Shown: positions 26,693-40,324 of the stretch, piece by piece
Numbering within the stretch: the first letter of the stretch is position 1
How the letters are laid out: each line of letters opens with the position of its first letter
The notes under the pieces: model-generated
The model's input: the letters and a program-made list of their open reading frames with translations, nothing else
Told to the model about the DNA's origin: nothing
Database searches by the model: none
Assembly: GCF_002001125.1 (NCBI RefSeq)
Contig: NZ_MUNV01000019.1
Location: 1 to 64,000, forward strand
DNA from: Rhodanobacter sp. B04
GTDB taxonomy: Bacteria; Pseudomonadota; Gammaproteobacteria; Xanthomonadales; Rhodanobacteraceae
DNA: 64,000 nucleotides
Direction of reading: 5' to 3'
Translations under genes and position numbers: made by a program

Positions 26693-27553
26693 ATGATCCG
26701 CAGCATGACGGCTTACGCCAGTGCCGAAACCACCGGCCCCGCCGGTACGCTCAGCTGCGAGCTGCGCACGGTCAACCACCGTTATCTGGAGCTGAGCCCG
26801 CGACTGCCGGAGGATCTGCGCAGTTTCGAGTCGCAGTTGCGCGAACGGATCGCCGCGAAGCTGTCGCGCGGCAAGCTGGACATCACGGTGCGTCGCGCCG
26901 GCGATGCGCGCAGTGAATCGTTGCAGGTCAACAACGCGCTGCTTGCCCGGATGTCGGAACTGAATCTGGACATGGCTGCGCTGTTTCCCGGCATGCAGGT
27001 GCAGTTCACCGAGTTGCTGCGCTTCCCCGGCGTGATGCAACAGGCCGAGATGGATCCGGAAGCGCAACAGGCCGCCTTGTTCGATGTGCTCGATCGTGCG
27101 CTCGATGCACTCACCGCCACCCGCGAGCGCGAGGGCGAGAAACTGGGCGAGATCCTGCGCGACAAGCTGGACGGCATTGAGCGCGTGGTTGCCGACGTAC
27201 GTGGCTGGATGCCGGAGATCCGCACCGCGTTGCGCGCACGGCTGGAAGGGCGCCTGGCCGATCTGAAGCAGCCGGTGGAACCGGGGCGGCTGGAGCAGGA
27301 GCTGGTGTTGCAAATCACACGCACCGACGTCGACGAGGAACTGGACCGCCTGACAACACATATCGGCGAGACACGCCGCGTACTCGGCCTGAAGGAGCCG
27401 GTCGGTCGCCGGCTGGATTTCCTGATGCAGGAATTCAACCGCGAGGCGAACACGCTCGGTTCCAAGTCGGTCGATGCCCGCAGCACCAATGCCGCGGTCG
27501 AGCTGAAGGTGCTGATCGAGCAGATGCGCGAACAGGTGCAAAACATAGAATGA
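26693..27553 (+). CDS. yicC: YicC family endoribonuclease-like protein
   Basis: A 286-aa YicC protein: N-terminal [13 protein letters not shown], then [11 protein letters not shown] and the DUF1732 C-terminus [44 protein letters not shown]. YicC is linked to RNA turnover in E. coli. The start is ATG 26693; the upstream open frame over the rph promoter is not coding. In many genomes gmk follows yicC directly; here 12 kb of accessory DNA has been inserted between them. Confidence 0.95.
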
Positions 27554-27601
27554 TGGTTCACGCCATCCCATAGCATCCCGCCGAACACTTGAAACCTCTC
27601 T

Positions 27602-27626
27602 AAGCCCGCATCTAGCGGGCTTTTTG
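27602..27626 (+). terminator. Rho-independent terminator after yicC
   Basis: AAGCCCGC and GCGGGCTT form an 8-bp stem around ATCTA, followed by T residues. It lies 49 bases past the yicC stop and marks the last core-genome feature before the accessory island. Confidence 0.88.
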
Positions 27627-27671
27627 TTGGGTCAGGTCTGCCCGTAGCGTCCCACCGCATCTCGCAGTAAT

Positions 27672-27726
27672 CTTGTACCCACAGTTGTACCCATGGGGTA
27701 CAAATGGCGCTTTTTGTGGGTACAAG
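27672..27726. repeat. Nested palindromes before the integrase (attL or integrase-binding sites)
   Basis: CTTGTACCCACA (27672-27683) and TGTGGGTACAAG (27715-27726) are perfect inverted copies. Inside them TTGTACCC (27685-27692) and GGGTACAA (27696-27703) form a second perfect inverted pair. Four TTGTACCC boxes within 55 bp just upstream of an integrase gene fit arm-type binding sites or an operator, and include the presumed left attachment site. Confidence 0.65.
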
Positions 27727-27752
27727 CTGTTTTCGGCGCAGGTGAGGCGATC

Positions 27753-29024
27753 ATGGGCAAGCTGACCGACGTGGCGATCCGCAACTGGATCAAGGCTGGG
27801 GAGCTGTTCGAGGGGCGCAGCGACGGCGAAGGGCTGTCCCTGCGCTACCGAGAACGGGATAGCGCGCCCCGCTGGCTGTTCCGGTACCAGATGGGCGGGA
27901 AGGCCCGGGTGCTGCAGCTCGGCAGCTACCGCGACCTGTCCCTGGCCGATGCACGGCGAACGGCCAAGGAGATGCGGGCGCGGGTAGCGCTGGGTTTCGA
28001 CGTGGCGGCCGAGAAGAAGGAACGCAGGCAAGAAGCCGTCGCCAAGATTGACGCGGTGCGCAACGCGGTGACGGTGAGCATGCTGGCGGACCAATACCTG
28101 ACCGCACGGATCATCGGGCGCTGGAAGCACCCCAACATCGTGCGCAGCCGGATCGAACGGGACATCAAGCCCGCGATCGGCTCGCTGACGCTGGCTGATG
28201 TGCGCCCCTCACACATCGACGCCATGCTCAAGGGCATCGTGAAGCGCGGCGCTCCGACGATGGCCACGGACGTCCTGCGCTGGGTCAAGCGGATGTTCGA
28301 CTACGCCATCAAGCGGGAAATGGTGCTGACCAACCCCGCCGCGGCGTTCGACCCTTCCGATGCGGGCGGCAAGGAGGATGCTCGTCAGCGCTGGTTGACC
28401 CGGGCGGAGCTGGTACGCCTGCTGGGGGCGATGAAGGTCGCCAAGGGCTGGGTCCACGAAAACACCCTGACGGTGAAGCTGCTGCTGATGCTGGCCAACC
28501 GCAAGTCCGAACTGATCGAGGCGCCCATCAAGGAGTTCGACCTGGACGGGGCTGTCTGGCACCTGCCTGCCGAACGCACCAAGACCAACATGGCGATTGA
28601 TATCCCGCTGCCCCATCAGGCGGTCGAGGCGCTGCGCGAGCTGGTACGCATGGCCGGGGAAAGCGCCTGGCTGCTGCCGGCGCGCAAGATGCAGTCACGC
28701 ATGATCCCGCACATCGACGTGAACACCGTCAACGCGGCCATGGCCAAGAGCATCCGGCCGCTGATGGGCGAGGAGTGCGAGCGATTCACCATGCATGACT
28801 TCCGGCGCACCGCACGCACCCACCTGGAGGCGTTGGGCACGCCGCCGCACATCGCCGAGCGCTGCCTCAATCACAAGCTCAAGGGCGTTGTGGGGATCTA
28901 CAACCGCCACGACTATTTCGAGGAGCGCAAGGCTGCCCTGCAGGCCTGGGCCGACCTGCTGACCGACCTGGAAGCGGGCGACAGCGGCAAGGTTGTACCG
29001 ATCAAGCGCAAGAAGGCTGGTTAA
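27753..29024 (+). CDS. int: Tyrosine-type site-specific integrase (DUF4102 family)
   Basis: A 423-aa integrase with an N-terminal DUF4102-type domain (GLSLRYRERDSAPRWLFRYQMGGKARVLQLGSYRDLSLADAR), a core-binding domain, then the catalytic domain: Arg in MLANRKSELIEAP, HDFRRTARTHL (HxxR), LNHKLKG (His) and the nucleophile Tyr in IYNRHDYFEER. It probably integrates the element by recombining att sites. ATG 27753 is chosen because GGTGAGG precedes it; the open frame from 27693 would start within the palindromes. Confidence 0.93.
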   Translation: MGKLTDVAIRNWIKAGELFEGRSDGEGLSLRYRERDSAPRWLFRYQMGGKARVLQLGSYRDLSLADARRTAKEMRARVALGFDVAAEKKERRQEAVAKIDAVRNAVTVSMLADQYLTARIIGRWKHPNIVRSRIERDIKPAIGSLTLADVRPSHIDAMLKGIVKRGAPTMATDVLRWVKRMFDYAIKREMVLTNPAAAFDPSDAGGKEDARQRWLTRAELVRLLGAMKVAKGWVHENTLTVKLLLMLANRKSELIEAPIKEFDLDGAVWHLPAERTKTNMAIDIPLPHQAVEALRELVRMAGESAWLLPARKMQSRMIPHIDVNTVNAAMAKSIRPLMGEECERFTMHDFRRTARTHLEALGTPPHIAERCLNHKLKGVVGIYNRHDYFEERKAALQAWADLLTDLEAGDSGKVVPIKRKKAG

Positions 29025-29076
29025 GTCGCAACGCATGCAATGGCAGCATGAAGAATCGGGCCTAGCCCGGTAAGCG

Positions 29077-29137
29077 GTGGCACCGGGTGGTAGTGACACC
29101 CGGGCCACCTTCCACAATCACGACCGTTAGGAGGTCG
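29077..29137 (+). promoter_or_regulatory. Two hairpins in the leader of the first cargo gene
   Basis: GTGGC-A-CCGGGTG (29077-29089) pairs with CACCCGGGCCAC (29097-29108) with a single bulged A. Then CGACC (29121-29125) and GGTCG (29133-29137) enclose GTTAGGA, so the AGGAGG ribosome site of the gene at 29143 is partly inside the second hairpin. This could control translation. Not a standard terminator, since no T-run follows. Confidence 0.5.
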
Positions 29138-29142
29138 AAATC

Positions 29143-29439
29143 ATGGCAAGTGAAAGTGTAGCAACCGCGCATCAAGCCGTCCGCGACGCGTTGGGCCAGT
29201 GGCCGGAAGACGTTATTTCGCAGCTGGAACCCGCATCAAATGCGCTGTACTGGATCGAAGCGATCTTGCGTATAGCATCGAAGCAAGAGAATCAACGCCC
29301 GCACACTGACGCCGCGCGCATGGTAGAAGCCGCGCGGTACATCGCCACCGACTTCGCCAACCTTGCCGATTGCGAGCGAGAGAGCATGCACGATCACCTG
29401 CGCGAGCTCGACACCACGACAATGGAGGCGCAGCCATGA
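29143..29439 (+). CDS. Hypothetical protein, first cargo gene of the element
   Basis: A 98-aa acidic protein, predicted helical, with NALYWIEAILRIASKQ and AARYIATDFANLADCERESMHDHLREL. No known domain was recognised. An excellent AGGAGG ribosome site precedes the ATG. The stop overlaps the next ATG, so it begins a three-gene coupled cluster right after the integrase. Confidence 0.65.
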   Translation: MASESVATAHQAVRDALGQWPEDVISQLEPASNALYWIEAILRIASKQENQRPHTDAARMVEAARYIATDFANLADCERESMHDHLRELDTTTMEAQP

Positions 29440-29771
29440 GGCCCCCTCCAGTATGTTGTGACCGCTGCGGCAAGCCAGTAGGTGGATCGGTCGCATTCGC
29501 TTGGATCGAACGCGAAATGGGCGCGGCCTCCTTTGCCTGGGTTGACTGTGGTTGCGGCCGTGGCAGCGTTGAATCTGCCATCAAGCGACGCGCAGCTCGC
29601 GTTTCCCCTCAGTGGGAGCGCGCGGTTAGAGCCGCTATCGCACGGAATAGGAGGTCACGAAAGCGTAGCGCCACGGTGAGAGCCTCAGCGGAGTATCTCG
29701 TCTTACAAGCCGCCTGTTCCTGCCCCGACTGCAGGGCTGTCATCGAAGAACGCCGAGTCGCGACAGCATGA
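29436..29771 (+). CDS. Hypothetical zinc-finger-like protein
   Basis: A 111-aa protein with cysteine clusters at both ends: CCDRCGKP at residues 7-14, VDCGCGRG near 37 and ACSCPDCRAV near 94-103. These could bind one or two zinc ions. The middle is strongly basic (AIKRRAARVSPQWERAVRAAIARNRRSRKRS), suggesting nucleic acid contact. No family was recognised. The start at ATG 29436 overlaps the previous stop; the frame is open further upstream, within the preceding gene. Confidence 0.6.
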   Translation: MRPPPVCCDRCGKPVGGSVAFAWIEREMGAASFAWVDCGCGRGSVESAIKRRAARVSPQWERAVRAAIARNRRSRKRSATVRASAEYLVLQAACSCPDCRAVIEERRVATA

Positions 29772-29983
29772 ACGCGCAGATCACAAAACGTCGCCGACCA
29801 AAGGGCACAATCGCGTCTGGCAAAGTGCTGTCATTCATTCGTGCCAATGGCGAGTGGCTAGCGTTGGTGGTGTTACACACCTCTGAGCGTAACCTTCCCG
29901 TGCTATCGAGGATTGTTCCTATCAGCGACCTCAAAGGATCGGCGCGACGCAAGGCTGATCGCTGGCTGGAATACTTGGCCTGA
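29768..29983 (+). CDS. Small basic hypothetical protein
   Basis: A 71-aa protein with a basic start (MNAQITKRRRPKGTI) and a beta-like middle GEWLALVVLHTSERNLPVLSRIVPISDLKG. No family was recognised. Its ATG overlaps the previous stop by 4 bases, placing it in the same coupled cluster. Confidence 0.55.
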   Translation: MNAQITKRRRPKGTIASGKVLSFIRANGEWLALVVLHTSERNLPVLSRIVPISDLKGSARRKADRWLEYLA

Positions 29984-30075
29984 CCCGTTCAACGCCGCGC
30001 CTAGGCTGATCCCCGAAAACCGGGCACCTTCCCCGGCTGGCGCGGCACCTCTTGAAGGGCGCAGAGGTGTGCGTG

Positions 30076-30723
30076 ATGTTGCTTGACCAACATTTGAAGC
30101 AACGCAATGAACGAGAGCCGAAGGATTACGCCAGCCAAATTTTGGATTCGGTAACAAATTCACTCATCAAGTTGGAGATAGTCCAGGATGAAAAGCAGTT
30201 CATTGATGAGCTATTCAATCCCATGGTCTCTGTAGTTCACAAGGGTTGCGGGGGCGACGAACTCTACGAATTTCTCTCAGATGAAACGAATATTCCCCAG
30301 GGAAAAGAGGTCAACAATCGGAAGGCATGGGCGCAGATAGCAATTGCCTATTGCGTGCAGGCGCTGCGGGCTTCCGATAGTGGCGACCTTACTGCCGCGT
30401 GGACCTATGTTGTTGACGCGAGATTTGCTGCAGATGCTGTGTTGAGCAGCATTCTTGACCGGGCGGCTGCCATCAGTGCGAGGAGCAATGTTGGCCGCAT
30501 AGGTGTAGCTGCGAAACTTGCAAATGACCCTGTGCAAGCTGCGAAGGCCGAAGCTAAAAAGCTGTGGCTGGAGCGGTATGCCGGGGAACACCCGAAGCTG
30601 CGTACCAATGAACAGTTTGCAATTGAGGTCATGCGGAGATGGCCAGCACTCAAAAGCTCAAAAGTCATTTGCGGCTGGTGCACGATGTGGAACAAGGAAG
30701 TCAAAAGCAAGCCTGCTAGCTGA
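30076..30723 (+). CDS. Hypothetical element protein
   Basis: A 215-aa soluble protein. The N-terminal two-thirds are helical with ASQILDSVTNSLIKLEIVQDEKQF and many Ala-rich helices. The C-terminal section AKKLWLERYAGEHPKLRTNEQFAIEVMRRWPALKSSKVICGWCTMWNKE looks like a helix-turn-helix-like module seen in xanthomonad mobile elements, from memory. GC is clearly lower than the core genes. ATG 30076 is preferred because GAGG lies 8 bases ahead; TTG 30052 and GTG 30067 are possible. Confidence 0.65.
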   Translation: MLLDQHLKQRNEREPKDYASQILDSVTNSLIKLEIVQDEKQFIDELFNPMVSVVHKGCGGDELYEFLSDETNIPQGKEVNNRKAWAQIAIAYCVQALRASDSGDLTAAWTYVVDARFAADAVLSSILDRAAAISARSNVGRIGVAAKLANDPVQAAKAEAKKLWLERYAGEHPKLRTNEQFAIEVMRRWPALKSSKVICGWCTMWNKEVKSKPAS

Positions 30724-30814
30724 CTGGCCATCGTGCTAGCTCGCTGGCAGCGGTAGGGGATTAGATGGGAACAATCGGTTTCCTACGGCGCACGGTGCGC
30801 CGATTGGAGCCGCT

Positions 30815-31084
30815 ATGCACACCTCAGAATCATCGTTCCATTCTCAACTTGAGTCGAAATCCGGCTTGGCTGAAATCAAACCCGTCCGCCTGATCCGATT
30901 GCCGGAGGTCAGGCACCTGACCGGCCTGTCACGCACGCAAATCTATCGTTTGGAAGCCCGCGGCGACTTCGTGAAGAGGATCAAGCTCGGCGACGGTCCT
31001 GCTTCGGCAACGGCCTGGTTAGAAACCAGCGTCCTGCAATGGATTGCCGATCGCATCGCGGCATCGCAGAGCGCGACGGCATGA
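30815..31084 (+). CDS. AlpA-family HTH regulator (excisionase-like)
   Basis: An 89-aa MerR/AlpA-type DNA-binding protein: VRLIRLPEVRHLTGLSRTQIYRLEARGDFVKRIKLG, then ATAWLETSVLQWIADRIAAS. Such proteins activate the integrase or act as excision factors in P4-like elements. The stop overlaps the primase-like gene start (31081-31084), so it heads the replication operon. Confidence 0.85.
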   Translation: MHTSESSFHSQLESKSGLAEIKPVRLIRLPEVRHLTGLSRTQIYRLEARGDFVKRIKLGDGPASATAWLETSVLQWIADRIAASQSATA

Positions 31085-31617
31085 ACGGCCCTCAGATACG
31101 ACGAACCCCAGCGTGCAAGGCAGGGGTTCGAAATCGCACACACAGCACATCTGCCACGAATCCTATCACCGCCGCTAGCCCGGCGCAGCAGCTGCTTCCA
31201 CGATTGGAAGGTGTCATCACCACCGGCAAGGGCTGGCGCGCACGTTGTCCTGCGCACGGTGGCAAGTCGGCATCGGTGGCGATCACTGAGGGCGACAACG
31301 GCACGCTGCTGCTGCATTGCTTCGCCGGTTGCCAGGTGCACGATGTACTCGCTGCGGTCGGGTTGCAGGTCGGTGATCTGTTCGTCAGGCGCGACTTGCG
31401 CAGCATGACGCCTAGCGAGCGCAGTCAGTTGCGGCAGACGGCATTGCTTCCCCGCTGGAAGGCTGCGATCGACGTGCTGGTAACGGAAGCCAGTGTGGTG
31501 CTGATCGGCGCCAGCCACCTGGGCGACGGCGAACCACTGGATGACACCGACCTGGTCCGGCTCCGCGTCGCAGCCCTTCGGATCTTCGATGCCCAGGAGG
31601 TGCTCAGTGCACGCTGA
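31081..31617 (+). CDS. CHC2 zinc-finger primase-like protein
   Basis: A 178-aa protein with a primase zinc-binding domain: RCPAHGGKSASVAITEGDNGTLLLHCFAGC contains the C-H-C-C ligands near residues 58-87. This is the N-terminal part of DnaG-like and P4 alpha-like replication proteins; no TOPRIM domain follows, so the priming activity may need the next gene. The frame continues upstream of 31081 without any conserved sequence. The next gene overlaps it by 11 bases. Confidence 0.8.
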   Translation: MNGPQIRRTPACKAGVRNRTHSTSATNPITAASPAQQLLPRLEGVITTGKGWRARCPAHGGKSASVAITEGDNGTLLLHCFAGCQVHDVLAAVGLQVGDLFVRRDLRSMTPSERSQLRQTALLPRWKAAIDVLVTEASVVLIGASHLGDGEPLDDTDLVRLRVAALRIFDAQEVLSAR

Positions 31618-32809
31618 AGCGGAGACCTACAGCGCCAGCATCGACGACCTGGCCGCACGCGAGGAAGCAGCCCAGCCGATCCATGACCCGATCCGGGATG
31701 CATTCGATCGTGTGCCCAGTGATCCGGGAGCTATCTTCGAACTCCCTGTGCTGACCGCCATCCGAGAAATGCGACAGGCTGACCCGGCCGGCTATGCGCG
31801 TATCCGTGCCGAGGCCAAGAGCTTGAAGGTCAGCGTCGGCGAACTGGATCGTCTGACCATGCCCGAACGCGAAGGCAGCCGCGGGCAGGTGTTCGTCGAC
31901 GTAGATCCATGGTCAGAACCGGTCGACGGTGCGGAGCTGCTGGCCGATGTTTGCCGCGTGCTGCACCAGCACGTCATAGCCGATGCCCCAACGATCACCG
32001 CCGCGGCGTTGTGGTCGGTGCACACCTGGTGCATGGACGTGCTTACGGTATCGCCGCTGGCGCATATCACGGCTCCAGAGAAGCGCTGCGGCAAGACGGT
32101 GCTGCTCACGGCGCTGTCCCGGCTCACCTATCGTCCATTGCCGGTCAGCAACATCTCACCGGCTGCTCTGTTCCGGAGCATGGAACTCTGGCAGCCGACG
32201 CTGCTGGTTGACGAGGCGGATACCTTCCTGCGCGACAATGAGGAAGCCCAGGGCCTGATCAATTCCGGGCTCTATCGTGAGACAGCCTTTGTGCTACGCA
32301 GTGTCGGTGACGATCACACGCCGACCGCGTTTCGCACATGGGGAGCCAAGGTGCTCTGCGGCATCGGCAAGCTGGCCGACACGATCGAGGATCGGTCGAT
32401 TCCGTTGCGCATGCGGCGCAAGGTACCCGGCGAGAGCGTCACCAATATTCGTCTGTCCGATCGGAACATCTGGCTGAACCTGCAGGCGCGCATGGCTCGG
32501 TGGGCGGATGACAATCGGCATGCCATCACTAGCGCTCGGCCCGCGTTCGCACACGGGTTGAATGATCGCGCCCAGGACTGCTGGGAGCCACTACTGGCGA
32601 TCGCAGACCTATCCGGAGGGGAGTGGCCAGGCCGGGCGCGAGCTGCCGCCCTGGCGCTTCACGGTGTTGAGGAGGAGGCCCCCAGCATCAATGTCGAACT
32701 GCTGCGCGACATCAAGGCTGTATTCGATGAACGTGGCGCTAGCCGCATAGCCACACTTTGCATCGTCGGATTTGCAGACCTTTTGAACCTCGACCGGCCC
32801 CGTGTTTGA
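31607..32809 (+). CDS. DUF3631 helicase-like protein, truncated at the C-terminus
   Basis: A 400-aa protein with a Walker A-like APEKRCGKTVLLTAL, Walker B LLVDEADTFL and sensor-like region IEDRSIPLRMRRK, then the DUF3631 region up to INVELLRDIKAVFDERG. It probably unwinds or loads at the element's origin. The start is GTG 31607 with AGGAGG 6 bases ahead. Relatives usually continue well beyond this point; here the last roughly 20 residues look unrelated and run into the antisense zinc-ribbon gene, suggesting a deletion near 32740-32770. Confidence 0.8.
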   Translation: MHAEAETYSASIDDLAAREEAAQPIHDPIRDAFDRVPSDPGAIFELPVLTAIREMRQADPAGYARIRAEAKSLKVSVGELDRLTMPEREGSRGQVFVDVDPWSEPVDGAELLADVCRVLHQHVIADAPTITAAALWSVHTWCMDVLTVSPLAHITAPEKRCGKTVLLTALSRLTYRPLPVSNISPAALFRSMELWQPTLLVDEADTFLRDNEEAQGLINSGLYRETAFVLRSVGDDHTPTAFRTWGAKVLCGIGKLADTIEDRSIPLRMRRKVPGESVTNIRLSDRNIWLNLQARMARWADDNRHAITSARPAFAHGLNDRAQDCWEPLLAIADLSGGEWPGRARAAALALHGVEEEAPSINVELLRDIKAVFDERGASRIATLCIVGFADLLNLDRPRV

Positions 32810-33091
32810 GGTCAGCGTTGCTGACGCTGGTGTTGGGTCTGCCGCGATCTGCGCCGTCTGCGTCGCCCGTGAATTGTCATTCTCGTCGCTGGAGTTTTCA
32901 CTCGCGAAGAAAGCCCAGACGCCTAAGCCGAGGAGAAGGACGGCGATCACCTTTGCGGGCATTGGTGTCCGTTCCCATTCGCTTCCACGACGCCGGCTCC
33001 TTGTGCCTGCGATCGGGCAACCACACGACGGACACGCTGGGGCTGAGTCGCTTACCTTTGATTTGCAATCGGGGCATTTGATCAGTGCCAT
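32609..33091 (-). CDS. Zinc-ribbon membrane protein with aberrant C-terminus
   Basis: A 160-aa protein on the minus strand. It has a zinc ribbon (MALIKCPDCKSKVSDSAPACPSCG), a basic linker, one transmembrane helix (VIAVLLLGLGVWAFFAS) and a Ser/Thr/Ala-rich periplasmic stretch up to VQKVCKSDDAKC. The last 55 or so residues read antisense through the DUF3631 gene, so they are probably not original sequence. The 200-base convergent overlap is best explained by a deletion joining two genes. Confidence 0.65.
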   Translation of the reverse strand: MALIKCPDCKSKVSDSAPACPSCGCPIAGTRSRRRGSEWERTPMPAKVIAVLLLGLGVWAFFASENSSDENDNSRATQTAQIAADPTPASATLTSNTGPVEVQKVCKSDDAKCGYAASATFIEYSLDVAQQFDIDAGGLLLNTVKRQGGSSRPAWPLPSG

Positions 33092-33167
33092 GGTCTTTCC
33101 CCTAGATACTCACCGGAAGCCCCGGTTAGCGCATGCCATACATGCAAACTGCAATATAGCGCTGGGG

Positions 33168-33310
33168 GTTATGTCACCCCCAAAGAGCCATGAATCCCCA
33201 CTACGCGCGCGCGTATGTGCGAGTGGGCAAACGATATGTCTGTGCTGATCACCGCGGAGTTATGTCAGGCCCAAAAGGAATGGCGAGGGAGTTTTGTCAG
33301 CCCCAAAGGA
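33168..33310 (+). repeat. Three degenerate 20-bp direct repeats
   Basis: Copies begin at 33168, 33259 and 33291 and share GTTATGTCA or GTTTTGTCA, then two variable bases and CCCAAA(A)GGA. Starts are spaced 91 and 32 bp. They could be iterons for the replication proteins or binding sites for a repressor. The function is an inference. Confidence 0.5.
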
Positions 33311-33508
33311 GCGAAAGGCGTCCCATGAACGCACACATCGCGTGCGCGAGGGTAAGGCGAAGGTGACGGCAAACCTGAGAAAGTGTGTGAAGGCCGCAGA
33401 TCAGGTCTGAACGCGAACATCTTGGACAAGCACGCTTGGAAGCTGAACAGCTTCGTTGAATCATGACGAAAGTCATGTTGTCGGGTCTTGTTGGGAAGTA
33501 GATCATGC

Positions 33509-33565
33509 CGTATATACAGGTTCAAGCCCAGCCAAATTGATATTGGCGAGCCATGTATATACAAT
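33509..33565 (+). promoter_or_regulatory. Promoter and operator of the first TA pair
   Basis: TTGATA (33537-33542) and TACAAT (33560-33565) are 17 bp apart, a strong sigma-70 promoter. The perfect palindrome TGTATATACA (33554-33563) covers the -10 box, and a second TATATACA lies at 33511-33518. A ribbon-helix-helix antitoxin could bind both to repress the operon. Confidence 0.65.
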
Positions 33566-33595
33566 GGATGACCCAGCATTTGAGGCGCTCAGAGC

Positions 33596-33907
33596 GTGAT
33601 CAAATTCCTTCCCGATTGCATAAACAAGCTCTTGGTTGATCACCAGGTGTCTCAGAAGGAAGTCTTGGAGTGTTTCGCCAACGGCGAGGCGATCTATCTG
33701 GAAGACACGGACGAGGAACACAGAACTGATCCGCCATCATGGTGGTTCATGGCGCCAACCAACCGCAATCGCATGCTGAAGGTTTGCTTTATTCGAAGGG
33801 ACGGCGACGTGGTGATCAAGACCGCGTTCGAGCCGAGTAGTGGCAAGCATCTTGAACTTTACCGCCAGCGGGCAGGATTGCCTTCGTGCTGGCCATCAGA
33901 GGAGTGA
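33596..33907 (+). CDS. Putative toxin of a type II toxin-antitoxin pair
   Basis: A 103-aa protein starting MIKFLPDCINKLLVDHQVSQKEVLECFANGEAIYLEDTDEEHRTDPP and continuing with WWFMAPTNRNRMLKVCFIRRDGDVVIKTAF. The pattern matches small proteins often labelled ADP-ribosyl-dinitrogen-reductase hydrolase that travel with CopG-like partners; that label is probably not the true function. An RNase-like or BrnT/RelE-type role is possible. The start is GTG; the ATGs just upstream are out of frame. Confidence 0.7.
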   Translation: MIKFLPDCINKLLVDHQVSQKEVLECFANGEAIYLEDTDEEHRTDPPSWWFMAPTNRNRMLKVCFIRRDGDVVIKTAFEPSSGKHLELYRQRAGLPSCWPSEE

Positions 33908-33911
33908 AATC

Positions 33912-34265
33912 ATGGGCAACAAGATCCCGGGAACCGCAGAGAACTGGGAGAGTGGCGAGCTTGGTCTGAATGAGGCAACCGCGCGCGTCGCATCGCCCGA
34001 AGAAACAGCAGCTATCGAACAGGCAGCTGGACTGAACATGCAGCCGATCTCAATCCGGCTGCAGAAAGACCTAGTGAGCGTACTGAAGGAAATCGCTCGC
34101 TATCGCGGTATCGGTTACCAGCCGATGATCCGTGATTTGCTGCAACGCTGGGCGGTAGGAGAGATCTCTACCATCTTGGATGAACGCGCCGTTGAGGCGA
34201 AGCGTAAAAAGGCTGAGGTAGAGCAGAACGAATCCCTTGCAGGCGACTTGCGCCAGACTGCTTGA
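33912..34265 (+). CDS. CopG/ribbon-helix-helix antitoxin
   Basis: A 117-aa protein. The central QPISIRLQKDLVSVLKEIARYRGIGYQPMIRDLLQRW is a ribbon-helix-helix DNA-binding domain like that of BrnA/CopG antitoxins. The N-terminal part GNKIPGTAENWESGELGLNEATARVAS probably wraps the toxin. GGAG lies 7 bases before the ATG, and the toxin stop is 4 bases before it. Probable autorepressor acting at the TGTATATACA site. Confidence 0.8.
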   Translation: MGNKIPGTAENWESGELGLNEATARVASPEETAAIEQAAGLNMQPISIRLQKDLVSVLKEIARYRGIGYQPMIRDLLQRWAVGEISTILDERAVEAKRKKAEVEQNESLAGDLRQTA

Positions 34266-34289
34266 TCAACGCGTCGTCTCATGACTAAG

Positions 34290-34318
34290 CAAGCCCCCGC
34301 TTCGGCGGGGTTTTTTTA
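34290..34318 (+). terminator. Terminator after the first TA pair
   Basis: CCCCGC and GCGGGG pair around TTCG, flanked by AAGC and a run of seven T. It closes the toxin-antitoxin transcript. Confidence 0.88.
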
Positions 34319-34467
34319 TCGTTATCAGCGCGCGCTTACACGTTCGCGCATGCTCCGCTGATGACGTGTAAGTCACCGGACTGCATCCTGACGTTGCCCC
34401 ACGAGCCGTCTGCCCTCTGTCAGCGCGGACCGATGACCGGGCGACTTGCCTTGCATGGGTGCCGCGC

Positions 34468-34707
34468 ATGATGGTCTACACCGTGAAGCAGAACGAAAGC
34501 GGGCTGTGGTGCATTCGCACCATGAGCGCCACGCTCGCGGATGGCCTGCAGCTCGGCGCCGCGATCAGGCAGGCTAGGGACGCTGCCAGGGCAGAGCATC
34601 TGGAGTCAGGCCTTGTCACGCGGGTGGAAATGCACGGCGCTGATGTGATCGTGCCACTGGCCCATTACCAAGCATCACAAGACACCTGGACGGGCGCCAC
34701 GGCGTGA
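34468..34707 (+). CDS. DUF2188-like small protein (copy 1)
   Basis: A 79-aa protein: MMVYTVKQNESGLWCIRTMSATLADGLQLGAAIRQARDAARAEHLESGLVTRVEMHG. The pattern of an aromatic at GLW, the LGxAIRxAR helix and a final beta strand resembles DUF2188 domains. A diverged paralogue lies at 39115-39357. The start could be GTG 34459, ATG 34468 or ATG 34471; no clear ribosome site was found. Function unknown. Confidence 0.6.
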   Translation: MMVYTVKQNESGLWCIRTMSATLADGLQLGAAIRQARDAARAEHLESGLVTRVEMHGADVIVPLAHYQASQDTWTGATA

Positions 34708-34713
34708 AGGCGA

Positions 34714-35034
34714 GTGCGGGTGAGCGGGATCAATCTGCGCAACCGGCTGAGTCGCGCACACTGGTGCGGGTGCTTCAGCTGCAGCGAGCATGAGCTTATC
34801 GAGGCAGTGCGGGAAACCCGAAGCACAGAAGTCGGCGCGGTGGGTTGTAACTCGCCACTAGGTACGCGTCAGGTGCCTTCGGGGGCTTGCTGGGCTTCGA
34901 TCACAAGGGGTTGTGTTTGCAGTGTCATCGCGACACTACTGGGCGATGTTTGTCCGTTGAGACTTAAGCCGAACGTTGCCAATCAACAACGCGATCAGCT
35001 TGCTTTCGACGTCATGCGCGTCACATGGTTTTGA
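34714..35034 (+). CDS. DUF3606-like small protein, possibly frameshifted
   Basis: GTG 34714 begins seven bases after the previous gene. The first 45 residues, with GINLRNRLSRAHWCGCFSCSEHELIEAVRET, resemble DUF3606 (IxL...V.YW...FG.SE.ELREAV). Later residues look random, and such proteins normally end after about 60 residues, so a frameshift or decay is likely. The rest of the gap to 35132 holds no gene. Confidence 0.35.
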   Translation: MRVSGINLRNRLSRAHWCGCFSCSEHELIEAVRETRSTEVGAVGCNSPLGTRQVPSGACWASITRGCVCSVIATLLGDVCPLRLKPNVANQQRDQLAFDVMRVTWF

Positions 35035-35132
35035 CCCGCATGGCGTCGACCGTTAGTCCCTAGACTGAACGGATTGGTAGCCATGACGATCAGCATGGTT
35101 GTTTATGGGGTGAGCAATACTTATTATGGGTC

Positions 35133-35468
35133 ATGACCAACATTGTGTCGCTCAATACGCGCATGGGATTGCCACGAACACTGACCGCGGATGAACTGGT
35201 TGTCCTAGTCCGCGAGCTGATGGAGCAAGGTGGCCGGATGGTTGCGCGTGAGCACGCGTATGTTCGCATGGAAGAGCGCGACATCAGCATGCGCCAGGTG
35301 CGCCATGTTTTGCTGCGTGGCGAGGTTACGCGCGGCCCTGAGTGGAGCGAGTACCAGAACTGGGCTTTCACCATGCAGGCTGATAGTGCTGGTCAGTTGA
35401 TTAGTGTTGGTGGTGCGATAGATGTCGATCTGATGGGTCAAACAGTGATCGTAATCACTGTGTATTAA
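35133..35468 (+). CDS. Putative MqsR/DUF4258-like toxin
   Basis: A 111-aa protein. MVAREHAYVRMEERDISMRQVRHVLLRGEVTRGPEWSEYQNWAFTMQADSAGQLISVGGAID fits the DUF4258 fold, which covers small RNase-like toxins (the H-AxxRMxERxI motif near residues 38-52). It precedes an HTH protein by 32 bp, the order seen in mqsRA-type modules. Toxicity is inferred. Confidence 0.7.
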   Translation: MTNIVSLNTRMGLPRTLTADELVVLVRELMEQGGRMVAREHAYVRMEERDISMRQVRHVLLRGEVTRGPEWSEYQNWAFTMQADSAGQLISVGGAIDVDLMGQTVIVITVY

Positions 35469-35500
35469 GCAAGTAGCCTAACGGGCACAAGAGGAGAGTT

Positions 35501-35968
35501 ATGGAGACGAATCTGTACCGCTATAAGGGGTGCGGTCTGGACAATGTCTACCTTCAAAACGGGTACACAATAAACACGCTTCGATCGGGGGAAGAGGTTG
35601 TTTCGATCGAAGATATCGAAGGCCTGCATTGTGCAATCGCGTCCGCAATTGTGGATTCTGCATCTGCGCTTGATGCAAAGACGTTTAAGTATTTGCGGAA
35701 GGAGCTCGACATGTCTCAGCGCCAAGCGGCGCAAATTTTTGATGTGGACGAGCAGACCGTTTCATTGTGGGAGCGCGCGCGCAACCCTGTTCCCCAGCAC
35801 GCAGACCTAATGCTGCGAGCTCTACTGAAAGAAAAGATGAGCGGAAATGCTGAGTTGCGCAAGATGATCCAACGCTTCAACTCACTAGATCGCGAGATCC
35901 GTGCGATGGAAGCAAAAATCGAAATGCACAAGGCGCAAGGCGGCAATTGGATGCAACAGGCTGCCTGA
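35501..35968 (+). CDS. MqsA-like HTH antitoxin/regulator
   Basis: A 155-aa protein. Its HTH domain FKYLRKELDMSQRQAAQIFDVDEQTVSLWERARNPVPQHADLMLRALL resembles the C-terminal Xre domain of MqsA. The N-terminal part YRYKGCGLDNVYLQNGYTI is short of the CxxC pairs of the MqsA zinc domain, so it may be a variant lacking zinc. It follows the toxin and likely represses the operon. Confidence 0.75.
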   Translation: METNLYRYKGCGLDNVYLQNGYTINTLRSGEEVVSIEDIEGLHCAIASAIVDSASALDAKTFKYLRKELDMSQRQAAQIFDVDEQTVSLWERARNPVPQHADLMLRALLKEKMSGNAELRKMIQRFNSLDREIRAMEAKIEMHKAQGGNWMQQAA

Positions 35969-35991
35969 GGCGATTTCTGAAGAATTCTTTG

Positions 35992-36018
35992 AAGCCCCGG
36001 GTCCCGGGGTTTTTTTTG
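35992..36018 (+). terminator. Terminator after the second TA pair
   Basis: GCCCCGG and CCGGGGT-type arms (AAGCCCCGG / CCCGGGGTT) form a short stem followed by eight T residues. It ends the TA transcript 25 bases after the stop. Confidence 0.85.
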
Positions 36019-36069
36019 CGCGGTTTGACGCGTTGCCGAGGCTTCGGACGCCGCATAGGCCGCCGAATC

Positions 36070-36120
36070 CTTGTACCCATGGTTGTACCCACACGCAAAA
36101 GCGAAGTGGAGAAACCCTTA
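36070..36120. repeat. Second copy of the TTGTACCC repeats (probable att site)
   Basis: CTTGTACCCATGG (36070-36082) and TTGTACCCACA (36083-36093) repeat the motifs found before the integrase at 27672-27696, in direct orientation. They are followed by CGCAAAAGCGAAGTGGAGAAACC (36094-36116), a sequence that reappears, diverged, before gmk at 39619-39641. This is the presumed right end of the integrase element. Confidence 0.65.
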
Positions 36121-36546
36121 TGTGGTAAGGTTTGTGCCATGCACTTCGGGTTTAGGTGCAACATCGAGTGATGTTGCGGGTTGCGAACCTCGGATCGCCT
36201 TTTCCTGGTTGATGCAGGCAGCATCGACAGGAAGATGAAAAGAAAATGGCGCCCGGATGGGCGCCAAGGCGAGTCCTTTCGATGATACGCACGAGGTCGC
36301 TCCATGCATCCGTGCCACTGGGCATTGCGGGTTGGCAATGCTGCCGGGGATCCTGTCGGCTTGAGCTACCTCAGGCGGAAGACTATCGGGATGGGTCTTC
36401 GGGTGAACCTGTAGGATTTACCAGTTGACCTGGTTCAAGGCCATTGGTCAGTCCTGAGTGCTGGCCGGCCGTGAAGGTCACGGCCAGAGGCGTGCCTTGC
36501 GGCAGAAACGATGGGGAGGCCTGTCAGGCCGGTGGTATCGCCTAGG
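36121..36546. other. Gene-free region with hairpins downstream of luxR
   Basis: No credible gene lies here. Three perfect inverted repeats are seen: GCAACATC/GATGTTGC (36158-36177), TGGCGCCC/GGGCGCCA (36247-36266) and GGCCGTGA/TCACGGCC (36467-36485). On the minus strand the middle one is followed by a T-rich tract (ATTTTCTTTTC), so it can end the luxR transcript; the third lies 60 bases after the luxR stop. Confidence 0.55.
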
Positions 36547-37260
36547 TCAGAGGATTCCGAGCAGCAACGCCTTGGCAACGGCCTGCGTCTTGTTGGCGAC
36601 GTTGAGTTTGGTCAGGCTGCTTGCGATATGGAACGTTACGGTACGTTCGGAAATACCCAGGATTCTGCCGATCGCATCGGCCGTTTTGCCGGCAGCACTC
36701 CATCGCAGTACTTCGCATTCACGGGCGGTGAGCTCGCAGTCGCGCTCAGGTACGAGTCGCTGTATTTCTGCCGCGCCAATCAGCCCATGGATGACATGCG
36801 ACAGCCAGACCAGCTGCATTTCCGTCTCCGCCAGTTCTGACGCAGTCACTGTCTGATGTGACCGTGCCAGGGAAAGCATCCCGGTTGTCATGTGCTTGCC
36901 GTGAGTGGCCAATGCCCAGCCGTGCCGTATTCCATGCGCGCGTGCTTCTTCCCAAAAGGCTGGCTGGCTCTCGAAAAGATCATCCTTCCAGACCACCGGA
37001 GACACATCCTGCGATGTCCGCTGGATGAGCGGATCAATCTCCAGGTAGTTGTTCGCGAAATAGTGGTCAAGCCAGTGCGCAGGGTATGTGCTGGCCCAGG
37101 TGACACTCGGGCGTGACAAGGGGAAGGGCACGCGCAGAACATAGGAGCAATATTCGAAGCCCAGATCACCCACGATGACGGCAAGCTCTCTCAGTACCTC
37201 GGCAGATGATCCTGCCGATGAAGTGAGACGATTCAGGCAATCTTCGCGCCAAGCCTTCAC
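36547..37260 (-). CDS. luxR: LuxR-family acyl-homoserine-lactone-responsive regulator
   Basis: A 237-aa regulator with an N-terminal autoinducer-binding domain and a C-terminal LuxR HTH. Ligand-pocket residues are all present: Trp55, Tyr59, Trp63, Tyr67, Asp76-Pro77 and Trp91 in VTWASTYPAHWLDHYFANNYLEIDP...VVW. The HTH has LTARECEVLRWSAAGKTADAIGRILGISERTVTFH. The start is GTG 37260. It is divergent from the rsaM-like gene and belongs with the luxI 700 bp away. Likely activates luxI at the 37871 lux box when AHL builds up. Confidence 0.93.
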   Translation of the reverse strand: MKAWREDCLNRLTSSAGSSAEVLRELAVIVGDLGFEYCSYVLRVPFPLSRPSVTWASTYPAHWLDHYFANNYLEIDPLIQRTSQDVSPVVWKDDLFESQPAFWEEARAHGIRHGWALATHGKHMTTGMLSLARSHQTVTASELAETEMQLVWLSHVIHGLIGAAEIQRLVPERDCELTARECEVLRWSAAGKTADAIGRILGISERTVTFHIASSLTKLNVANKTQAVAKALLLGIL

Positions 37261-37364
37261 TTTTATGATCCTGCGTCATCTGCGGAAACTGACAGTTGGT
37301 CGTCTTGCGGGCCCGGAGTTACGGTAGGCCTCAAGGGTCACCCAAATCTCTATAGGGACGCGCC

Positions 37365-37763
37365 GTGAGCTTAAGGTCATCTCAACATGCGGCATCCCCA
37401 AAAAGATCGCTGGATGGCTATATACGACTTACGTTCGATGCACTTTCAAGCTTGAATTTTCAGCGGAAGCTGGCGTGGGAAGATCCTGATCTTCAGCAGG
37501 ACCTTATCGTAGAGGATGTCCCCGCCTTCTGTGCAGGGTATTGCGAATGGGCGACCAATGACGTGCTTCAGGTCAGCATCGGATGGGCCTGGTTTGGCCT
37601 GGCAAATGGGCGAAGGTTCATCGCGCCAGGTGGAATAAGCAGCAATGTCATGCTTGTAACTCAGACAAGTTACGACTTGGGCATGCATCGGACCGATGAA
37701 CTGTTGCGGGCGTGGCTTTCAGGCGAAAGCTGGCAAATCAGCGGTGCCATCAGCGGTCTCTGA
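37365..37763 (+). CDS. RsaM-like (DUF4902) quorum-sensing regulator
   Basis: A 132-aa protein between luxR and luxI. Segments DGYIRLTFDALSSL, FCAGYCEWATND, QVSIGWAWF, GGISSNVMLVTQTSYDLG and LLRAWLSGESWQ match the RsaM family as remembered from Burkholderia and Pseudomonas, where RsaM sits between the luxR and luxI homologues and restrains AHL synthesis. AGGGA precedes the GTG start. The family call is from memory of its conserved Trp and Gly pattern. Confidence 0.7.
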   Translation: MSLRSSQHAASPKRSLDGYIRLTFDALSSLNFQRKLAWEDPDLQQDLIVEDVPAFCAGYCEWATNDVLQVSIGWAWFGLANGRRFIAPGGISSNVMLVTQTSYDLGMHRTDELLRAWLSGESWQISGAISGL

Positions 37764-37870
37764 GGCCACGCAATTATTTTCCCTGGGCTGCAGGTTATCG
37801 GCACTGCTCGTCGGCAGCTCTACCGGAATCGTTCCGGATAAATTCCGTACTCGGAATTTCTCCTGCCTGC

Positions 37871-37890
37871 AACTGTAGAACCTTACAGTT
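37871..37890 (+). promoter_or_regulatory. Perfect lux box upstream of luxI
   Basis: AACTGTA (37871-37877) and TACAGTT (37884-37890) are perfect inverted copies separated by GAACCT, the 20-bp size and symmetry of a LuxR-type binding site. It is 59 bp before the luxI start, with an A+T-rich -10-like GATAAA just after, so bound LuxR would activate luxI in a positive loop. Confidence 0.9.
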
Positions 37891-37949
37891 ATGGCCCGAT
37901 AAAAATCATTCTTCAATGCCGTTATCGCTATTCAGCGGAGCCACGGCAA

Positions 37950-38561
37950 ATGTTGACAGTGATGGCTGGCTCGGGGAGTCAACTGCCACCTGACCTCGAG
38001 GTGGCGCTTGCCGCTTATAGATACGAAGTATTCATAGAGACTTTGCGCTGGCAGTTGCCGGTTGAGAATGGGCTGGAGCGTGATCAGTTTGACCGGCCCG
38101 ATACGTTGTATGTCATTGCCAGCGACGCGCGCGGTTCGGTGTGTGGCTGTGCCAGGTTGTTGCCGACGACTCAGCCGTATTTGCTCGACGAAGTCTTCCC
38201 GGGCCTCATGAGTGGTGCACCTGCACCGCATGCATTGGATGTATGGGAGTTGTCGCGATTTTCCACCAAGGCTATCGGGGAAAGTTCCACTCCTCCTCGT
38301 GATGAGGCCAGGCGGCGTTTCTGTGCGTTGTTTGCCGCTGTTGTGCGGGCGGCGATTGAGCAGGGCGCAGCCCGGCTGATCACCTTCACGGCGATGGGTG
38401 TGGAAAGGATTCTCAGAAGCATTGGTATGCATGCGCACCGCGTGGGGCCACCCCAGCTGATCGATGGCGAGCCCGTGCTGGCCTTGTGGATCGAACTGGA
38501 TGATCAGACGCGGCAAGCGTTGCAGCTTCCAATGATCGAATCCAAGGGAACCCCACATTAG
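37950..38561 (+). CDS. luxI: Acyl-homoserine-lactone synthase (LuxI family)
   Basis: A 203-aa autoinducer synthase that joins SAM with an acyl-ACP to make an AHL. The invariant residues are present: Arg24, Phe28 and Trp34 in RYEVFIETLRW, Asp45 and Asp48 in ERDQFDRPD, Arg69 in GCARLLP, and Glu100 and Arg103 in WELSRF. The start is ATG 37950 with GGAG nine bases ahead; ATG 37962 is an alternative. The acyl chain length cannot be predicted from this. Confidence 0.94.
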   Translation: MLTVMAGSGSQLPPDLEVALAAYRYEVFIETLRWQLPVENGLERDQFDRPDTLYVIASDARGSVCGCARLLPTTQPYLLDEVFPGLMSGAPAPHALDVWELSRFSTKAIGESSTPPRDEARRRFCALFAAVVRAAIEQGAARLITFTAMGVERILRSIGMHAHRVGPPQLIDGEPVLALWIELDDQTRQALQLPMIESKGTPH

Positions 38562-38713
38562 AGCTTCGTCTGGAAATGGCAGTGTCAAAGGGAGCTTGGC
38601 TCTGAACGAATGGGAGCTCAGCCGCCACGAGGCAGGTTGTGCAGCTACCGATCTCTACGGGCGCGAAAAATCCTGCCCGGCTCTACGCAGCAGAGGTGCG
38701 ACCGTGGACTGAC

Positions 38714-39079
38714 ATGGCTACTCCCTTGGTGACCTTGCTTGCTACGTGCTTGTGTGCGACGGCGTTCATTCCATCAACGGCTGTGGCGGCGAGTGGGCGG
38801 ATCACGTTTTCAGGCGCCATTGTCGAGCCAACTTGCAGTGTTTCGGCTACGGACCGCCCGGTGGTGGTTGATGCGACACAGGCGGAGATCCTCATGGAAC
38901 GACTGGCTTGCAACAGATCCGGCAACGCGAGCGGGGGCGGATCCCCGATCTACGCGTTGACGGTCATGCGTCTGTCGGGTTCGGTGCAGGATCAAGTGCT
39001 GAAGTACTTCGATGCATACGTCAAAGCAGGTCGCCCCGACGTTGCAGACCCGGTACTGCTGACCCAGACCTACGAATGA
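38714..39079 (+). CDS. Small secreted fimbrin-like protein
   Basis: A 121-aa protein. MATPLVTLLATCLCATAFIPSTAVAA is a signal peptide; the mature start SGRITFSGAIVEPTCSVS is the usual N-terminal sequence of type 1 fimbrial subunits, with the second Cys in RLACNRSGNA. It is shorter than a full pilin (about 150-180 aa) and no chaperone-usher genes are near, so it may be a minor or stand-alone secreted protein. It lies 150 bp after luxI and may be under quorum control. ATG 38714 is chosen because it starts the signal peptide. Confidence 0.65.
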   Translation: MATPLVTLLATCLCATAFIPSTAVAASGRITFSGAIVEPTCSVSATDRPVVVDATQAEILMERLACNRSGNASGGGSPIYALTVMRLSGSVQDQVLKYFDAYVKAGRPDVADPVLLTQTYE

Positions 39080-39114
39080 TGTGCTGGACCTGATCAAGCC
39101 ATGGAGTCGCCGAC

Positions 39115-39357
39115 GTGAGTATCGTAATCAAGGTCAAGGAAGGTGCTGACGGGTTATGGAACGTTTGCCGCGATGTCGATCCTGTCGTCACGCAATTGAG
39201 TCTGGGCTCTGCCATACGGACGGCCCGGGGCCTCGGTCGTGCGACCCATGACAACACCGGCGTGGCGGTACTCGTCGTGATGATCTGCCCCATTGGCATG
39301 ACTCTCCTGGCGAGGTATGCAAGGCCTGCCACCCAACTCAGCGTCGCGGCGGCTTGA
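39115..39357 (+). CDS. DUF2188-like small protein (copy 2)
   Basis: An 80-aa protein starting MSIVIKVKEGADGLWNVCRDVDPVVTQLSLGSAIRTARGLGRATHDNTG. It aligns over its whole length with the protein at 34468-34707 (VK..GLW, L.LG.AIR.AR...R..H...G), though at modest identity. GGAG precedes the GTG start. The function is unknown; it is the last gene before the gmk boundary. Confidence 0.6.
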   Translation: MSIVIKVKEGADGLWNVCRDVDPVVTQLSLGSAIRTARGLGRATHDNTGVAVLVVMICPIGMTLLARYARPATQLSVAAA

Positions 39358-39691: not shown

Positions 39692-40324
39692 ATGAATGCC
39701 CAGCGTGAAGGTACCCTGTTCGTGGTTGCAGCACCTTCGGGTGCCGGTAAATCCACCTTGGTCAATGCCTTGCTTGAGCGCGAGCCAGCGATTTCGCTGT
39801 CGGTGTCGCACACTACGCGTCCGCCGCGCACCGGCGAGTTGTACGGCCGGCATTACTATTTCGTCGAGCGTGGCGAGTTCGAGCGCGAGATCGCCGAGGG
39901 CATCTTCCTTGAGCATGCCGAGGTGCACGGCAACCTGTACGGCACCTCGCGCACGTCGGTGCAGAGCCTGTTGGCGCAGGGGCGCGATGTGCTGCTGGAA
40001 ATCGACTGGCAGGGTGCCGAGCAGATCCGTCGCAGCAAGCCCGACTGCGTCAGCGTTTTCATCCTGCCGCCATCGCGGGCGGAACTTGAGCGCCGTCTGC
40101 GCGGTCGAGGTTCAGACAGCGCCGAGGTGATCGAGCGCCGGTTGCGCAATTCGCGCGGCGAGATCGCCCACGCTCACGAGTTCGACTACATCCTGGTCAA
40201 CGACGTGTTCGAGCATGCGCTGGCCGACCTGCAAGCGATCGTGCGGGCGGTGCGCCTGCGCAGCACGTTGCAATGGCAACGGCATGGAGCCCTGATCGCC
40301 GAGCTGCTGGCCGCCGGAGCCTGA
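39692..40324 (+). CDS. gmk: Guanylate kinase
   Basis: Gmk (210 aa) phosphorylates GMP to GDP. P-loop APSGAGKST lies near residue 14; GMP-binding residues are in SVSHTTRPPRTGELYGRHYYFV, and EIDWQGAEQIRR and the lid region follow. The N-terminal MNAQREGTLFVV and the length are standard. It normally follows yicC, which is now 12 kb away. mlaF begins 78 bases downstream. Confidence 0.97.
   Translation: MNAQREGTLFVVAAPSGAGKSTLVNALLEREPAISLSVSHTTRPPRTGELYGRHYYFVERGEFEREIAEGIFLEHAEVHGNLYGTSRTSVQSLLAQGRDVLLEIDWQGAEQIRRSKPDCVSVFILPPSRAELERRLRGRGSDSAEVIERRLRNSRGEIAHAHEFDYILVNDVFEHALADLQAIVRAVRLRSTLQWQRHGALIAELLAAGA

Follow-up and report, generated by a model that had tools for sequence, protein, structure and literature searches.

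The 64,000-nucleotide stretch of Rhodanobacter sp. B04 analysed here (the window; its genome is coded G000) holds a quorum-sensing locus based on acyl-homoserine lactone (AHL), in which luxR, an rsaM-family gene and luxI lie between yicC and gmk, and, on the far side of luxR, a predicted small-RNA unit preceded by a lux box of its own. An initial annotation of the window had described the three genes and the luxI box; the second box and the RNA-like unit (36238-36426) sit just past the left end of the coordinates noted there and were missed. Along the minus strand, the 3′ end of luxR is followed by the second box and then by a conserved, structured stretch of about 140 nt that closes with a terminator. 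Table 1 gives the coordinates.

Table 1. Coordinates of the lux genes, lux boxes, predicted small-RNA unit and neighbouring integrative element in the window
Feature	Position	Strand	Evidence or remark
luxR family AHL receptor/regulator	36547-37260	-	PF03472 E 1.1e-38, 132.6 bits; PF00196 E 2.7e-19, 69 bits
rsaM family gene (DUF4902)	37365-37763	+	PF16245 E 7.3e-23, 81.2 bits (cut-off 25)
luxI family AHL synthase	37950-38561	+	PF00765 E 4.4e-24, 85.5 bits (cut-off 24)
luxI lux box AACTGTAGAACCTTACAGTT	37871-37890	+	sole match in the window with at most 3 mismatches; 0 in 100 shuffles
Second lux box AACTGGTAAATCCTACAGGT, predicted small-RNA promoter	36407-36426	-	120 nt past the end of the luxR coding sequence
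Conserved structured small-RNA unit (region of models R1 and R2)	36238-36393	-	predicted transcript ~36375 to ~36238
Intrinsic-terminator-like stem-loop TGGCGCCC-ATCC-GGGCGCCA, then TTTTCTTTT	36247-36266	-	stem and T-rich tail kept in 10 aligned copies
Weak lux-box-like site ATCTGCGGAAACTGACAGTT between luxR and rsaM	37278-37297	.	scores 10.3, ranking third in the window
Inverted repeat TGCCGT-N20-ACGGCA around the luxI ribosome-binding site	37917-37948	+	conserved in most of 12 aligned lux loci
Integrative element inserted at the yicC 3′ end, distinct from the lux module	27542-36176 (approximate ends; ~27.5-36.2 kb)	+	yicC-end copies 27542-27558 and 36160-36176
Integrase of the element	27693-29024		

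The luxR, rsaM-like and luxI frames are open and all exceed the Pfam cut-offs, which confirms the complete AHL locus of the initial annotation. By Pfam, LuxR has both the autoinducer-binding domain and the GerE helix-turn-helix (HTH), and its best relative of solved structure is the quorum-sensing control repressor 3szt (E 1.4e-57, residues 21-237), which we take to be QscR. That of LuxI is the AHL synthase 3p2f (E 3.8e-51), presumably TofI. The invariant LuxI residues that had been claimed are in place: R24, F28, W34, D45, D48, R69, E100 and R103, which we take to be the eight canonical ones, are among the residues invariant in 14 aligned sequences. RsaM finds its best solved relative in BCAM1869 (4o2h; E 1.3e-14), and all four Trp in the aligned BCAM1869 stretch face Trp in the window protein; with the chain numbering assumed to be offset by about 3, these are the core tryptophans given for BcRsaM, Trp60, 75, 77 and 125 (PMC8088503).

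The placing of an rsaM-like gene between luxR and luxI, likened beforehand to Burkholderia, is supported. The arrangement luxR (-), rsaM (+), luxI (+) is found in 72 of 79 loci of named genomes, obtained from the best 80 of 128 relatives by LuxI alignment; the seven exceptions are two loci at contig edges without neighbours (L149, L170), two with no rsaM detected (L144, L189) and three with another order (L131, L159, L169). Judged by sequence, the block is a CepR-RsaM-CepI-type (R-M-I) AHL quorum-sensing locus whose protein part is of an already known kind. Examples are cepR-BCAM1869-cepI in Burkholderia, tofR/tofM/tofI, and abaR-abaM-abaI in Acinetobacter. Such loci share with the window the same three families, their order and orientation, and a box before luxI (PMC3386692, PMC8088503). 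The protein part is therefore not new, since the R-M-I topology was described earlier (PMC3386692) and RsaM is already listed for Rhodanobacter (PMC10710839).

The box ahead of luxI matches the looser half-site pattern ACTGTA-N6-TACAGT exactly; with up to two mismatches this pattern is expected by chance 0.26 times per window, and 23 shuffles contained at least one match. The earlier description of a perfect 20-bp lux box stands as to the box but not as to a perfect 20-bp palindrome: it has two perfect 7-bp half-sites, a 6-bp core, and 7 of 10 pairs complementary. Relatives were compared in sets of 45 genus genomes (10 with the lux locus, lux+, and 35 without, lux-) and 233 family genomes. In all ten lux+ genus genomes the box stands 58-63 nt ahead of luxI (59 nt in seven of them), and this constancy makes positive feedback, as predicted by the initial annotation, well supported as a prediction. 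When the window genome was scored with a matrix based on the luxI boxes of other genomes (ten distinct sequences), the luxI box came first (31.9) and the second lux box ranked second (19.2), ahead of the next at 16.1, among 20 sites with at most three mismatches. The total shows no excess over the 37 sites of a backward-pattern control in this whole-genome scan, and the other 18 sites are for that reason not evidence for further targets.

The unit behind the second box adjoins luxR in five of the ten lux+ genus genomes and at two genomic places, namely in the window genome, Rhodanobacter sp. C05 (G163), Dyella sp. S184 (G171) and Rhodanobacter sp. C01 (G161), all in the yicC-gmk interval, and Rhodanobacter sp. 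MP7CTX1 (G173), where the locus lies elsewhere; these four relatives are all genus-mates in the comparison set. Across these five linked copies luxR and the box are separated by anything between 40 and 282 nt, while the span from box to terminator is kept. An RNA model (R1) was built from the five linked units with the lux box left out and was run over the 45 genus genomes with stricter filters. A second model (R2) was built from ten copies, the five linked ones and five from R1, which match R2 by construction; it was run over 40 genomes (14 lux+, 26 lux-), over the 233 family genomes with stricter filters, and over the 79 named loci. RNAalifold folds the unit into a long-range stem, an inner hairpin and a terminator stem. 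In the ten aligned copies (75% mean column identity), 95.7% of cells are paired, with none of 500 shuffles as high, and the covariation score is 0.194 versus 0.144 +/- 0.015 in shuffles, again with none of 500 as high; slid structures, used as controls, score 0.023-0.065. Cells with double changes number 10 versus 5.6 in shuffles (5 of 500 as high). Rfam 15 (E <= 1) reported no family at the unit in the 8 loci scanned, which hold 8 of the 11 copies.

These 11 copies comprise the five linked units and six further ones in four of the five unit-bearing genomes, five unlinked and one about 4 kb from a linked copy. The unlinked copies were found with R1 at G173:C3 (E 4.5e-22), twice at G161:C10 (E 6e-10 and 9e-10), at G161:C12 (E 6e-7 (6.1e-7)) and at G171:C14 (E 1e-9), the last some 770 kb from the lux-linked copy; all five lie in lux+ genomes. 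R2 added the extra copy of G163 (E 5e-15), about 4 kb from the linked one. That copy sits in the yicC-lux interval beside a remnant of an integrative element. Weaker R1 matches occur in G182 (0.0013), G189, G187 and G179, and weak R2 matches of the 40-genome search in G166 (0.0066), G182, G210 and G155. In 11 of 11 copies a lux box (11-14 of 14) starts exactly at -33 nt from the model start and scores highest of all sites within 150 nt. By the same measure, the top site in 150 nt, the eight weak matches (five of which match only an inner part of the model) score 7-9 at scattered distances.

The copies also keep company with the lux genes. Five of the ten lux+ genus genomes have a box-bearing copy, against none of the 35 lux- ones (Fisher p 2e-4, uncorrected for kinship), and no convincing copy was seen in the 35 lux- genomes. 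Over the 79 named loci R2 gave four strong matches, all in Rhodanobacter or Dyella and already known, and two weak ones (E 0.27 and 0.81); in this set, R2 found no linked small-RNA unit in the R-M-I loci of other genera. Spread by phage or plasmid was considered and rejected, as the window unit had no match in 72,556 plasmid records and two exact unit patterns had none in viral contigs.

Taken as a promoter and its transcript, the unit makes it likely that AHL-bound LuxR switches on both luxI and a small non-coding RNA encoded beyond luxR, each of them directly, and that the RNA family acts in trans. From the genes, boxes, conserved unit, covarying structure, copies and co-occurrence read in the sequence, we infer the transcription of the unit, its control by LuxR, its action by base pairing and the role of RsaM, as follows. 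LuxI would make an AHL; LuxR bound to it would bind the luxI box and raise luxI expression in a positive feedback, and would bind the box beyond luxR and raise the small RNA. The predicted RNA start was placed by hand from a -10-like GATAGT and the lux-box spacing, and the centre of the second box would lie about 42 nt upstream of it (counted by hand), a spacing that we take to be class II lux-promoter geometry. The RNA, of about 136-140 nt, would have an inner hairpin within its long-range stem and would finish at the intrinsic terminator. Because the promoter-RNA unit has extra copies in four of the five unit-bearing genomes, its copies are probable sibling trans-acting regulators, which would pair with mRNAs elsewhere. 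A broader reading, towards which we lean only slightly, has AHL-LuxR directly driving such siblings in these Rhodanobacter, so that most of the circuit's action would go by way of RNA; the arrangement would be Qrr-like with the density logic reversed, tied firmly to a LuxR receptor and retained next to an R-M-I locus at two genomic places. By orthology, RsaM is probably a brake that restrains the circuit, a role taken from work on AbaM (PMC8088503) and from a review (PMC10710839).

Several results weigh against a LuxR-driven, trans-acting RNA family. A terminator scan of the region found one site, not above the shuffle mean of 3.1, and the window RNA by itself folds with an energy that stands out only modestly (z -2.14; 8 of 200 shuffles reach as low a value). 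The covariation test consisted of five measures, two of which did not rise above shuffles: pairs with double changes (4 versus 3.4) and further pair types (13 versus 12.4). The window genome has a single copy only, and five lux+ genomes (G170, G172, G174, G187, G188) have no copy recognisable with R1 or R2. The five copy-bearing genomes are mostly close relatives and the copies are of common descent, so that neither the constant box distance nor the co-occurrence amounts to 11 or 5 independent events. Regulatory partners were sought with little result. Action of the small RNA on the 5′ regions of its own luxR, rsaM and luxI was rejected, the duplex energies falling within those of 200 letter shuffles in 15 of 15 tests (z -1.55 to 0.91) by what is a crude test. 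An exact complement scan with AAGGYGAGTCC gave 20 matches in five genomes, five of them the RNA genes themselves, versus 11 control matches; six of the other 15 fall no more than 32 nt ahead of where a frame longer than 60 codons could start, and the six proteins look unrelated, so these candidate targets were set aside.

The stretch might be nothing but the 3′ end of the luxR mRNA with its terminator, the lux-box-like sequence having arisen by chance. It does lie on the luxR strand just past luxR, and the terminator could end luxR transcripts too; yet unlinked copies retain the same box, spacing, fold and terminator, and among the linked copies it is the luxR side of the box that varies in length and the terminator side that is kept. 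We consider this account unlikely. Nor do we give much credence to a small mobile repeat, such as a miniature inverted-repeat transposable element (MITE) or a repetitive extragenic palindrome (REP-like), with an incidental lux-box-like palindrome, a view for which we see very little likelihood: five genomes carry 1-4 copies each, also outside lux loci, and the extra G163 copy lies in the yicC-lux interval beside the element remnant, but the copies have diverged to the identity given above, their structure covaries, and the searches of lux- genomes, plasmid records and (with the two exact patterns) viral contigs turned up nothing convincing. A short protein-coding gene behind the second box appears the least probable of these accounts. 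Frames longer than 60 codons begin within the unit in some copies, but among the longest frames of the 11 copies, compared by inspection, none is common from start to stop, they run past the terminator into unconserved sequence, and the changes within the unit preserve pairing. A LuxR-activated small RNA fits these observations best, and we retain it.

Small RNAs under the control of LasR or RhlR are known from Pseudomonas aeruginosa in Lrs1 and RhlS (PMC6739362, PMC11949849, PMC6786874). RhlS is located in the rhlR-rhlI locus and derives from the rhlI 5′ untranslated region (PMC6786874); Lrs1 is located in the pqsA promoter region (PMC6739362, PMC11949849), and its feedback loop with LasR (PMC6739362), in PA14 according to PMC11949849, was not found in PAO1-L (PMC11949849). 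Unlike these, the unit described here has its own predicted lux-box promoter beyond luxR, diverged sibling copies and no Rfam match. The Qrr RNAs of Vibrio are likewise siblings tied to quorum sensing and dispersed in several copies (PMC4211561), but it is phosphorylated LuxO that activates them, at low density; for the unit described here, LuxR-AHL at high density is predicted to do so, and Rfam gave no match. Among the open-licence papers searched, we came upon no family of small RNAs behind lux boxes, either in Rhodanobacter or next to an R-M-I locus, and by title no study in that literature is dedicated to quorum sensing in Rhodanobacter. If correct, the prediction would give an AHL circuit a directly LuxR-driven, multi-copy RNA output, a combination likewise not met with in those papers, and the RNA family would offer a way into the quorum-sensing regulon of Rhodanobacter, of which cultured soil strains exist. 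The mechanism of RsaM is called unknown in a review that thinks the transcription or translation machinery likely (PMC10710839); an RNA component at its locus is for this reason of interest alongside RsaM itself.

In the window yicC ends at 27553 and gmk starts at 39692, with the integrative element and the lux block between them. The element contains its integrase and an int-alpA RNA; the two copies of the yicC 3′ end are alike in 13 of 17 bases, and a 31-base direct repeat at 27663 and 36061 is 81% identical. From the adjoining integrase the initial annotation had inferred that the circuit was acquired, an inference that fails, since the element is separately bounded and is absent from two genomes with the lux locus in the same interval. 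Its duplicated yicC end is its own and it stops near 36176; the lux block lies beyond this right end and not between its ends, and in G171 and G161 yicC runs directly into the lux block. Recent delivery of the lux block by the neighbouring element is accordingly improbable in our view. In its favour are the guanine-cytosine (GC) content of the lux block (0.54-0.61 versus 0.62-0.68 in the flanks), its patchy presence (10 of 45 genus genomes), its several genomic positions, the integrase within the same yicC-gmk interval, and a G163 lux locus closer to that of the window (0.103) than are its gmk and yicC (0.125). Against a recent import, lux distances to the nine other lux+ genus genomes broadly keep step with the gmk and yicC distances (0.10-0.36 versus 0.10-0.21). 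Delivery by the adjacent element thus finds no support in these comparisons and appears largely refuted. On the strength of the lower GC, the patchy presence, the several positions and the G163 distances, acquisition may have come by another route, as an older transfer or as exchange between species.

On a question set beforehand, the locus is not core genome: luxI and rsaM are present in only 10 of 45 genus genomes, rsaM (PF16245) in exactly the same ten as luxI. In the family, 18 of 233 genomes have a luxI match (E <= 0.001), the weakest, in G226, with an internal stop. Among the genus genomes the yicC-gmk gap was measured in 43 (all except G181, whose sequence was not retrieved, and G155, which gave no yicC match; the window gap was taken from coordinates); it is at most 264 bp in 33, 1.0-2.1 kb in six, and holds the lux locus in four. 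The insertion between yicC and gmk, as initially described, therefore stands for these four (G000, G163, G171, G161) and not for the other six lux+ genus genomes, where the locus is elsewhere. Among the latter, G188 has one flank in common with G002 and G172 one with G232, both partners belonging to other genera, and the flanks of G187 and G170 have only 314 bp at 69% in common. The single flanks common across genera (L024/L030 for G188/G002; L026/L029 for G172/G232) hint at old shared positions. Trees of the lux genes and of gmk plus yicC agree in joining G174 with G172 and in placing G000, G171 and G161 close together; they place G163 and G173 differently, and several nodes have low support. 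From the window, lux p-distances are 0.103 (G163), 0.128 (G171), 0.160 (G161) and 0.23-0.36 (the six others), and those of gmk plus yicC are 0.125, 0.104, 0.112 and 0.13-0.21. Because the two sets rise together over these ranges, lux divergence appears to track the core roughly, but faster, and for G163 there are hints of exchange between species. By its distribution in these genomes, the lux locus is accessory and has moved position at least once.

Further sites within the locus may bear on its regulation. The luxR-rsaM gap, which in the window has the weak site of Table 1, holds higher-scoring box-like sites in G171, G161, G188, G187, G232 and G210. Given the weak site and the quorum-sensing-activated expression of abaM in Acinetobacter (PMC8088503), rsaM may also be a target of AHL-LuxR. 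The inverted repeat around the luxI ribosome-binding site could be either an operator or a leader hairpin. As an RNA hairpin it was rejected: 90.3% of cells are paired in 12 species, yet covariation does not rise above that of shuffles (122 of 500 reach it), and the repeat would enclose the start site predicted for luxI. Second lux-box-like sites were also noted 3′ of luxI in G174 (L025 10431-10450), G172 (L026 9860-9879) and G002 (L030 10110-10129). None of the three showed similarity to the small-RNA unit when the sequences were compared by eye, and in G172 alone a simple scan gave terminator-like sites, which lie where luxI ends and about 590 nt past the box.

Inside the integrative element, at 35133-35968, a DUF4258 gene stands beside an HTH gene that is MqsA-antitoxin-like below the cut-off, and G163 has related element pieces at the same place. 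At the other end of the locus, the assigned limit of 39357 had to be drawn in, the two open reading frames (ORFs) within 38639-39357 not being core lux genes. ORF 38639-39079 has a signal-peptide-like start and a weak, below-cut-off likeness to type 1 pilin N-termini; homologues lie 3′ of luxI in G163 and G171, and also in G188 (53% identity), where the genomic position differs. The second, P0005 (39115-39357), has no Pfam or NCBIfam match. It was rejected as a lux-specific gene, with homologues in 15 of 15 genus genomes searched, lux+ and lux- alike, and belongs to a small paralogous protein family with four members in the window genome, one of them inside the integrative element (34474-34668).

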